From Lachnospiraceae bacterium (GTDB lineage: Bacteria > Bacillota > Clostridia > Lachnospirales > Lachnospiraceae), in NCBI GenBank assembly GCA_017457865.1, contig JAFTGN010000041.1, positions 1 to 59,756 of the forward strand: a DNA stretch of 59,756 nucleotides, read 5' to 3'. The notes under the pieces were generated by a model that saw only the letters and a program-made list of their open reading frames with translations, made no database searches and was not told the origin of the DNA. A program made the translations under genes and the position numbers. Shown here one piece after another: positions 1-56,074 of this stretch; the stretch's first letter is position 1, and each line of letters starts with the position of its first letter.

Positions 1-178
1 GAAAACAGCCTGTATATCAGAAATTTTTCATTCAAAAAACTTTGTGAAACGCCGGTACTTTATTTTTTGAGCATAAAGCGAAAAAAATATTAGTACCGCT
101 GCGTGAAACCGAAGCGAAAGCGTGTTTTTTGAATAAAATTTTTGATAACAGGCGTTCGGTGATATAGTTTCGCAATTA
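1..178 (-). repeat. Dispersed palindromic element, copy 1 (cut by the window edge)
   Basis: This 198-base stretch before murE holds no gene but carries part of a repeat also found at 22281-22734 and 55824-56049. Read on the minus strand it has, in order: a GTTTCGCAA-type end (165-175), the conserved hairpin motif (149-178), the block CACGCTTTCGCTTCGGT (108-124), a nested stem starting GGTACT (54-97), and a segment matching the right end of the 22281 copy (1-28). TTCAAAAAAC at 31-40 pairs exactly with GTTTTTTGAA at 124-133, so the whole block can fold into one long hairpin. The far end lies outside the window. Confidence 0.7.
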
Positions 179-3399: not shown

Positions 3400-3432
3400 A
3401 GGCGTACGGTGTCATAGTTTCGCAATTGTCTA
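3400..3432 (+). repeat. Recurrent leader motif GGCGTACGGTGTCATAGTTTCGCAA
   Basis: Short motif between murF and priA, about 35 bases before the priA start. It matches the ends of the dispersed element at 149-178 and (inverted) at 22281-22313 and 16679-16711. Core: GGCGTNCGGT followed by CATAGTTTCGCAA. Its orientation to the downstream gene is the same as in the murE, pepM and thyX-like leaders. Confidence 0.65.
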
Positions 3433-21556: not shown

Positions 21557-21632
21557 AAGTGTCATCCTTTCTCATTCATGTGACAGGTGTGAAATTCTGT
21601 TTCGTGAGAACATACCATGTCCATCAGATATT

Positions 21633-22247
21633 TTAAAAAGTAATCAACTCTTCCGCATATGGAAGTGTTTCGATCCAGTCACAGAAGGTATGCCATTCTG
21701 CCAGCTTATGATTGCGTCTGGCATGATAAATATTCAACAGTGTTTCGTAATTTAAAGTGCAGGTACGCATCTGGTTGTAACTGCTTGGCAGCAGCTGAAT
21801 CATGTCATACCAGTCCTCTTTGGATTTGGTTTCTAAATAACGCAGGCGAATCTGCTCCAACTGTGTCACCACAGTCTCCATAAATGCCTTTGTAGCAGCG
21901 GTCATATGGTCGTGGCTGAAATCCTCTATGGAAAAAGGCTTGCTGTGAATTTTGTGCATGGTACTGGTAGAGTTGGCCACTGTGGCAACTTTATAAGTGT
22001 CATATTCTTTCCACCAGTACAGCGGTGCAGTTACATCCACTGATACAAAAATCATGCGCATATATTTTCTGTGATCACTGCCGGCTTTTGCCAGACGGCT
22101 GGCCAGACTCAGGTCATTGGGGCCTAATATGTAAGAGCCGTCCTCTCCATAGCTGCTGTCCATACGGTCCCAGCTGTTCATGGGGTTTCGGGCACCACGA
22201 ATGGCGTTTTCCAGATTCATCACCTGACCACGTTCGATTCGTAACAT
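21633..22247 (-). CDS. ThyX-like protein without the canonical RHR signature
   Basis: A 204-residue cytoplasmic protein. The stretch APLYWWKEYDTYKVATVANS followed by STMHK is laid out like the core of flavin-dependent thymidylate synthases (ThyX), but the usual RHR-x7-S signature is absent, so catalysis is uncertain. Assignment is by pattern memory and position next to a dUTPase, which would supply dUMP. Start at 22247 (MLRIERGQV) has GGAGA 10 bases upstream. The MITE at 22281-22734 lies immediately before it and provides its leader. Confidence 0.5.
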   Translation of the reverse strand: MLRIERGQVMNLENAIRGARNPMNSWDRMDSSYGEDGSYILGPNDLSLASRLAKAGSDHRKYMRMIFVSVDVTAPLYWWKEYDTYKVATVANSTSTMHKIHSKPFSIEDFSHDHMTAATKAFMETVVTQLEQIRLRYLETKSKEDWYDMIQLLPSSYNQMRTCTLNYETLLNIYHARRNHKLAEWHTFCDWIETLPYAEELITF

Positions 22248-22270
22248 CTTCTGTGTTCTCCTTTCAGATG

Positions 22271-22280
22271 GATTTTTCAA
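22271..22280 (+). repeat. Left copy of a 10-bp target-site-like direct repeat
   Basis: GATTTTTCAA occurs at 22271-22280, immediately before the element, and again at 22736-22745, one base after its end. This is what transposition leaves behind. Confidence 0.65.
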
Positions 22281-22734
22281 CAGGCGTTTGCGAAACTATG
22301 ATACCGAACGCCTTTTATCAAAATTTATATTTGTGTATGCAAAACGCAGGAAATTTTTTGGAGTGATGTCTTCGTACGCAATATGACTTTTTCAGGCACG
22401 CTCTCGCCTTCTTGAAGCGCTGTCTGCGTACGCAATATGGTTTTTTCAGGCACGCTTTCGCTTCGGTGAAAACGTAACGGATACTAACCTTTTTGTTCGC
22501 TATTCGCTCCAAAAAGCAAGTACCGACGTTTTCAAGAGCCTTTAAAAACCATATTTGCCTCCCTTGTCAGCGCTAATGAAAGTTTTTTTAGCGTTCTTTT
22601 GAAAGTCATATTTGCTTTCCTTGACAGCACTGATGAAAGTTTTTGAACGTTTTGCAATTCAACAAATATAAATTTATAAATTTCTAATGTGCAGGCTGTT
22701 TTCTGGTTTGATGAAAGAGTTTCGCAAACGCCTG
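22281..22734 (+). mobile_element. MITE-like element with 17-bp terminal inverted repeats, copy 2
   Basis: A 454-bp non-coding element. The ends CAGGCGTTTGCGAAACT (22281-22297) and AGTTTCGCAAACGCCTG (22718-22734) are perfect inverted repeats. The interior is a long imperfect palindrome with duplicated arms: TACGCAATATG occurs twice on the left (about 22376 and 22430) and is matched on the right by CATATTTGC twice (about 22551 and 22607). The block CACGCTTTCGCTTCGGTG (22451-22468) is shared with the copies at 107-124 and 55886-55903. There is no transposase gene, so mobilisation would need one in trans. This accounts for the whole gap between the ThyX-like and HD-hydrolase genes. Confidence 0.75.
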
Positions 22735-22851
22735 GGATTTTTCAATCAGGGTTTATCATAACATGAATTGGGCAGTTTGAAAAGGTGGCGGGGGAAAGAA
22801 GTTTGTGTTATGATGGAAAAAGGCGAAGGAAAAGATAGAAAGGAAATTACG

Positions 22852-42814: not shown

Positions 42815-42938
42815 GTGCAATTAGAAAATGGATGATACCAATATCACCGCAGGGATGATGCATGGCACAGGCTGTTTGATGTTCTGTTCAAAGCGTTTCG
42901 CAATTGTCTAAAGCGGTTACATTGAAGTGAGGAGTTGT

Positions 42939-55808: not shown

Positions 55809-55823
55809 GAGCAATTATTTGAA

Positions 55824-56049
55824 CAATTGCGAAACCTCATTTACCTTTTGGAAGATGCCTGCGTACGCAGCATGTCTTTCGAAGGCACGCTCTCGCTTCG
55901 GTGTAGATGCAGCAGTACTAATGTTTTTTAGCGTAAATGCAGAGCATTCACTCAAAAAACAAAGTACCGGCATCTACAAGAGCCTTCTGAAAGACATGTC
56001 TGCCTCCCTTGGCATCAGTTCAATATGTTGAATAGGAGTTTCGCAATTG
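55824..56049 (+). mobile_element. Dispersed palindromic element, copy 3
   Basis: A 226-bp non-coding element. Ends CAATTGCGAAAC (55824-55835) and GTTTCGCAATTG (56038-56049) are perfect 12-bp inverted repeats, extended by TATTTG / CAAATA outside. The interior folds on itself: GATGCC...CATGTCTTTC...GTAGATGC pairs with GCATCTAC...GAAAGACATG...GGCATC. It shares CACGCTCTCGCTTCGGTG (55886-55903) and a GTACTAA...AAAGTACCG inner stem with the copies at 1-178 and 22281-22734. No coding capacity. It accounts for most of the gap between pnp and the toxin gene. Confidence 0.7.
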
Positions 56050-56074
56050 CAAATAAAATATGGGATTTAAAATG

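Follow-up and report, generated by a model that had tools for sequence, protein, structure and literature searches.

The locus and anatomy of the element

The window, a stretch of 59,756 nucleotides from a Lachnospiraceae bacterium, carries between two genes a palindromic element bounded by terminal inverted repeats and short direct repeats (Table 1). The gene downstream of its AGGC end, which neighbours a dUTPase-like gene, had been labelled ThyX-like in the first-pass annotation; no Pfam or NCBIfam match was found for it, and it matches instead PHROG 6721, a family of unknown function (E 9.5e-73). The label of alarmone hydrolase given to the gene on the other side fits its matches to HD_4 and to part of the RelA/SpoT model. 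As the ATG of the PHROG 6721 gene lies 34 bp from the AGGC end, it is plausible, judged from the sequence, that this gene draws leader sequence from the element, as had been proposed. In the sister species a short and diverged AGGCA...TTTCGCAAGTGCC element occurs between the dUTPase-like gene and the homologue of the PHROG 6721 gene (L073, 1389-1498); the counterpart in the window (21571-21634) consists of only about 60 bp and lacks that short element.

Table 1. Features of the element, its flanks and further copies in the window
Feature	Position	Strand	Basis
Downstream gene, PHROG 6721	21633..22247	-	ORF list, profile searches
Shine-Dalgarno sequence of the PHROG 6721 gene, minus strand GAAAGGAGA	22257..22265	-	sequence; site list
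Left target-site duplication copy GGATTTTTCAA, 11 bp	22270..22280	.	sequence; TSD scan
Complete non-autonomous element, 454 bp	22281..22734	.	sequence, terminal-repeat comparison, TSD scan
Left terminal inverted repeat CAGGCGTTTGCGAAACT	22281..22297	+	self-comparison, TSD scan
Left arm, two tandem copies of a stem layer, 54 bp, 83%	22355..22462	.	self-comparison
Conserved core, model R1, 132.2 bits	22436..22552	-	alignment, covariance model
Right arm, two partner copies, 47 bp, 83%, 57 bp apart	22541..22644	.	self-comparison
Right terminal inverted repeat, exact complement of left	22718..22734	-	self-comparison
Right target-site duplication copy GGATTTTTCAA, 11 bp	22735..22745	.	sequence
Further copy, truncated by contig start	26..181	.	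core 26-139 (+), terminal repeat 166-181
Further, more decayed copy	55821..56052	.	core 55871-55997 (-)

Much of the anatomy first described was borne out on closer analysis. The 17-bp terminal repeats are complementary at 17 of 17 positions, the left one differing in the window copy from the form commonest in the genome, YAGGCAATTGCGAAACT. A flanking direct repeat is present, however it is not 10 bp long with one base of spacing, as had been noted, but 11 bp long and adjoining both ends with no spacer, with a score of 11/11. The long stem is supported by a predicted DNA fold of -95.2 kcal/mol, which 100 shuffles preserving dinucleotides do not approach (-52.5 on average, sd 4.7; z -9.2), and the arms are indeed duplicated, the layer copies lying at 22355-22408 and 22409-22462 on the left and at 22541-22587 and 22598-22644 on the right. 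The sole open reading frame of at least 60 residues wholly within the element (64 aa, 22318-22512, minus strand) had no Pfam match, in keeping with the claim that the element contains no transposase. At the tip of the palindrome sits a core that on the minus strand forms a stem, CGUCGGUACUU...UUAGUAUCCGUUACG, and a GC-GAAA-GC hairpin; this copy is itself one of the 39 sequences in the covariance model (R1) with which it was scored. Left and right family ends, partnerless within 5 kb, were also noticed at 3408-3426 and 42889-42909 of the window.

Copy number and distribution

The genome of the window (G000; 2,612,843 bases in 114 contigs) was compared with two congeners, a sister species (G002) and G001. 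The element is not single-copy in its own genome, as had been anticipated: BLASTN returned at least 68 matches there, 40 of the 149 candidates from a first look having been scored. Since the 19-nt left end occurred 84 times at up to three mismatches and its reversed control not once, the ends are not chance matches; the right end was found 81 times (control 0), and the terminal motif AGGCAATTGCGAAACT 255 times (reversed control 10). The 84 left and 81 right ends gave 54 pairs, 76-446 bp apart, with spacings that cluster at 76-106, 199-226, 283-326, 391 and 446 bp. Taken together, the family comprises roughly a hundred copies in this genome.

At up to two mismatches the left end occurred 50 times in the sister species and zero times in G001, and amongst 58 other relatives it was detected in four, once each and at two mismatches. 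Within named genomes the exact left-end pattern was found in 12 stretches, all of them RUG702 contigs, in a collection from which records of the window genome may be absent; the coordinates agree exactly with those in the sister species, which indicates that G002 is this MAG. The terminal motif, searched at up to two mismatches in 200 drawn genomes of the family, had at least one match in 168, most counts being near those of the control; it is abundant in several other Lachnospiraceae genomes, with peaks over both strands of 147 (G202), 142 (G183) and 74 (G214) and controls of 0-5 per strand.

Target duplications and empty sites

For evidence of transposition we considered 86 convergent pairs of terminal repeats, with up to seven mismatches over both repeats, from 80 stretches of the window genome and the window itself. 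Scores for the duplication were at least 8 in 41 of the 86 pairs, with 2.1 expected from randomly re-paired flanks, and at least 10 in 29 (0.25 expected); the duplication measured 10-13 bp in 38 of the 41. The remaining 45 pairs lacked a duplication at the threshold of 8, which we attribute to age.

The flanks of 11 copies were joined after removal of one copy of the duplication and searched in both congeners. For two of these sites (the L160 and L110 elements) the sister species has an uninterrupted match that spans the junction, so they are empty there. Amongst the others, one was occupied by a shorter copy (L159), one had its two halves on two contigs (L128), one gave a half match and six matched nothing in that genome; in G001 only two partial matches were obtained. 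The expectation that empty sites would be seen in sister strains therefore held for two other copies, but not at the window's own site, where no empty allele was seen and where the sister species carries an element whose ends are of the commoner AATTGCG form and whose interior differs in part.

The occupied site of L159 (1018-1324) represents a shared insertion in which the window genome has the core and the sister species (L309) a short form that lacks it. With the insertion site unchanged, the hairpin tip could have been deleted as well as gained, and the core-free short forms (14 of the 86 pairs, at 112 bp or less) need not on this account be ancestors of the longer ones.

Position relative to gene starts

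Eight of the 86 pairs had more than five repeat mismatches and were excluded from the analysis of sites, leaving 78 elements. In 63 of these a Shine-Dalgarno sequence and a start codon (ORF of at least 60 aa) were located within 90 bp of one end, and in none at both ends. Measurement of the distance to the start required at least 250 bp of flank, which excluded five more elements. Amongst the 73 that remained, the start codon lay 24-37 bp from one end in 57, with 23 at 30-31 bp; cuts made in the same DNA at random (256/4860) or in intergenic positions (277/4377) gave such a distance in 5-6%. In 49 of the 57 cases where a Shine-Dalgarno sequence was placed, its first base is 17-22 bp away from the end of the element. 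The elements showed no preferred orientation to the downstream gene (28:28, with 7 unoriented).

Given that the duplication is of the size of a transcription bubble, targeting of promoter bubbles was considered. At 36 of 60 sites an open frame on the same strand, 80 codons or longer, ends within about 90 bp upstream (a count taken without a null), by which many insertion sites look intercistronic, and the Shine-Dalgarno sequence is the better common factor; promoter-bubble targeting was hence set aside. Complete MITEs with the same kind of ends in two other genomes (G120 and G214) had a start codon at 24-37 bp in five of eight cases, but only 9 of 73 motif ends did so in 60 stretches from viral contigs and other genomes, where many ends are probably chance matches. 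By eye, the sister-species element in one pair of stretches (L147/L063) resembles an adjacent insertion in opposite orientation with its own duplication, and in another (L154/L068) the positions of the elements differ by a few bases; these cases suggest that gene starts are re-used as insertion sites. No description of the element or of a target rule based on the Shine-Dalgarno sequence was found in the accessible literature, which leaves out many subscription papers.

A candidate autonomous partner

A search for a transposase gene flanked by ends of this kind had been proposed; such genes were found between similar ends in viral contigs and in further members of the Lachnospiraceae, but none in the window genome. 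Of 40 viral-contig stretches holding the terminal motif, three contained convergent ends 1754, 1794 and 1765 bp apart, each enclosing an ORF of 485-507 aa. All three scanned proteins contain DUF772, and two of them have a weak DDE match. The best-scoring model for the partner transposases is that of the IS1182 family (NCBIfam NF033551), with 72.6, 68.4, 69.1 and 76.4 bits, those of the three viral-contig proteins being within 68-73; because these scores are far under the curated cut-off of 270, the partner is called only IS1182-like. It shares with this family DUF772 and the weak DDE matches, and it differs in its low scores and in a duplication of about 10-13 bp, often located before a Shine-Dalgarno sequence. 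Sequence comparison thus points to a transposase distantly related to IS1182 as the likely autonomous partner.

Further complete copies were inspected by eye. In G208 a 1757-bp IS, with a transposase at 80% identity, is flanked by two copies of AATAAAGTTGTTA and has an ATG 28 bp from its end, and in G012 a 1809-bp IS with its transposase in two frames has an ATG at 31 bp. A duplication was visible in three of six complete IS (L229, L233 and G208), and none could be seen around those of L246, G012 and a more diverged copy in G113. The IS of L229 has a start codon 50 bp away; beside the end of that in L233 none was found. Relatives of the G208 transposase occur on plasmids of Roseburia sp. 831b, Butyrivibrio proteoclasticus B316 and Agathobacter rectalis.

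A match to the partner transposase was obtained in 7 of 22 genomes searched, and in neither the window genome nor its two congeners, which were within the 22; mobility in the lineage of the window can therefore only be inferred. Its genome does encode another IS1182-like ORF (L204, 549 aa, 124.9 bits), around which the repeats of the element are absent within the fetched stretch. Transposases of the IS4 type (PF01609) were tried on account of the length of the duplication, however none of 13 places in 7 genomes had the repeats (up to three mismatches) within the stretch fetched.

A conserved core at the tip of the palindrome

The core was aligned from 39 of 52 candidate copies over 117 positions and 33 pairs, six copies from the sister species and seven from the window genome, most with a long loop insert, being left out. 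Two-sided changes were seen at 21 of the 33 pairs. A covariance model built on this alignment (R1) detected the core in 57 of 150 genomes of the family, including that of the window, at E<=0.001, with a best match outside the genus at E 1.9e-16; in a draw from the whole class it was detected in 6 of 291 genomes at E<=1e-4, all six in Lachnospiraceae. Diverged cores escape this genome-wide search, since G120, the MITEs of which do contain cores, was left unflagged by it.

For a sample outside the genus, 40 stretches were chosen among the model matches and gave 48 core matches. Paired states were observed in 94.6% of cells, compared with 66.4% in shuffled and 28-46% in slid controls, and 32 of the 33 pairs had two-sided changes, figures which are favoured by the fitting of this alignment to model R1. 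The loop of the small hairpin is of the GNRA type in 48 of 48 cores, and while the helices are exchanged, the loops around ACUU/UUAGUA stay fixed.

Rfam, searched at permissive thresholds, gave the core no match at or above a gathering score, either in the window region or in 40 stretches from relatives. Sub-threshold matches included short ones of the CsrC type within the core of L080 and one to Clostridiales-1 (E 0.76) that overlaps the core of L092. A near-threshold Clostridiales-1 match was also observed in L091 (1137-1279, plus strand; 40.9 bits, gathering score 48), about 220 bp upstream of a core. The main text of a study presenting 250 palindromic candidate RNAs (PMC8040213) makes no mention of Lachnospiraceae.

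Arms and other MITE families

Outside the genus the cores mostly lie in unrelated palindromes. On alignment of flank to flank, the best inverted repeat set in no more than 4 bp from either edge of the core in 37 of 46 cases (a count without a null) and not so in 9. Compared by eye, arms from different genera mostly bear no relation to each other, though two stretches (L088 and L191) carry ends of the TTGCGAAAC type. Sixteen of the 20 copies fetched from G100 form one family with the ends GTAACAGTTCAGCCGTGACG, the other four representing three further arm types; five of seven complete copies of this family have a duplication of 5-8 bp at a score of 5 or more (0.0 expected), three of the five being 8 bp long. 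With these other ends and the shorter duplication, the core looks, from sequence, to be common to MITEs of at least two transposition systems.

Interpretation and alternatives

The repeats, the duplication, the copies, the lack of a transposase, the similar ends of IS elsewhere and the two empty sites all favour the earlier reading of the element as a MITE, and we hold with high confidence that it is one: a non-autonomous, high-copy palindrome with 17-bp repeats, probably moved by an IS1182-like transposase. Such a transposase would act in trans on the terminal repeats and insert the MITE into a staggered target of 11-12 bp immediately upstream of a Shine-Dalgarno sequence, some 30 bp ahead of the start codon and with no preference of orientation, so that the insert would join a 5' leader or an intercistronic stretch. 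The arms are layered and change fast, and the tip keeps an asymmetric hairpin core that is common across Lachnospiraceae. This core may be the folded tip of a hairpin or cruciform recognised by a protein of the host or of a mobile element; alternatively, it might serve to make such a long palindrome tolerable.

A further proposal is put forward tentatively, as one that we would sooner doubt than assert: the core would be a mobile or selected hairpin-tip module, Lachnospiraceae-wide and distinct from any one transposon, and the IS1182-like transposase would target sites just 5' of Shine-Dalgarno sequences. This joint proposal takes the core to be common to MITEs of different transposases, with unrelated ends and with duplications of about 11-12 and up to 8 bp respectively, the arms to turn over completely, the asymmetric loops to be fixed and the core to lie typically at the centre of its palindrome.

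A competing explanation regards the element as primarily a structured RNA, or a regulatory leader that acts in cis like a riboswitch or an attenuator, copied with its genes, transposition being incidental. The covariation of the core, its invariable GNRA loop and its location just ahead of gene starts in the window genome are in agreement with this. Outside the genus there are 29 mismatches of the A-C type, of which a single pair accounts for 16; with this pair excluded G-U exceeds A-C on the modelled strand (33 to 13), as it does in the window genome (18 to 8). However G-U is scarce among paired cells (33/1359 or 2.4% outside the genus, 18/1232 or 1.5% in the window genome) when compared with six tRNAs of the examined DNA (14/137 or 10%, a small control), and the core has no Rfam family at threshold. 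A bias of orientation, considered as a sign of RNA function, is absent in the window genome and weak in the co-directional settings outside the genus (18 sense, 11 antisense). We judge a structured-RNA origin of the element to be improbable. As to the core itself, the scarce G-U and the want of a clear orientation bias favour a role at the level of DNA, which may hold but is offered with reserve; action at the level of RNA seems unlikely.

The ends of the element are similar to those of IS, as would be seen if it were a decayed, internally deleted IS copy and no separate MITE family existed. This appears very unlikely, as the core was found at E<=2.2e-5 in six of the eight complete MITEs of G120 and G214 with such ends and, by the core model, between the ends of none of six IS (L229, L233, L246, L249, L269, L270).

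REP/BIME palindromes are imperfect hairpins with conserved asymmetry, and REP sequences are spread by an HUH enzyme, RAYT, without target duplication. A hairpin of this kind, spread by RAYT and not by a DDE transposase, would account for the imperfect intergenic hairpins with conserved asymmetry, and the scarcity of G-U suits a hairpin of single-stranded DNA; the element differs in having target duplications and long terminal repeats resembling those of DUF772/DDE-type IS, and we give this origin very little credence, less than that of a decayed IS.

Least probable of all is a bidirectional transcription terminator between two genes: the long intergenic hairpin and the 12 of 44 fully placed outside-genus cores that lie between convergent genes are compatible with it (of the 48, 3 are in divergent settings and 4 incompletely placed), but the ends of transposon type, the duplications, the dispersal of the copies and, in the window genome, their location before start codons speak against it. 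From the 12 of 48 cores between convergent genes, the target rule seems instead to be tied to the IS1182-like ends and not to the core.

Relation to known elements and significance

BOX, RUP, ERIC and Correia/NEMIS are high-copy palindromic intergenic repeats and resemble the present element in this; on the core of the latter no Rfam family was at threshold. Read as a MITE, the element shares with IS-derived bacterial MITEs in general the short length, the absence of a transposase, the repeats, the duplication, the high copy number and the intergenic location; MITEAba12 of Moraxellaceae (PMC6382973) is an example of such MITEs. The features of the present element that differ are the fixed distance to the start codon, the layered arms and a tip core common to other MITEs.

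A transposase that places inserts about 30 bp before starts in either orientation would, if true, be a natural tool and a source of evolution of 5' leaders; some sixty of the examined gene starts in the window genome carry such an insert. The core raises the question of why the same folded tip occurs in unrelated palindromic transposons of one family: it may point to a host protein dealing with long hairpins of DNA, or it may itself be a mobile module. The target rule near the Shine-Dalgarno sequence and the travelling tip core go beyond the earlier reading as a MITE and merit follow-up.

Paired cores

Two cores 0.07-1.1 kb apart were observed in 8 of 40 stretches from other genera (L080, L082, L083, L085, L087, L088, L179 and L185), three of which (L080, L085 and L185) had been chosen with both matches known. 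In one of these (L085, 1605-2676, from G019) about 1.1 kb between two inverted cores has no ORF longer than 110 aa wholly inside and contains repeated GC-rich segments. The left core is on the minus strand and the right core on the plus strand in eight of eight, as though the inverted pair made up a single composite unit.
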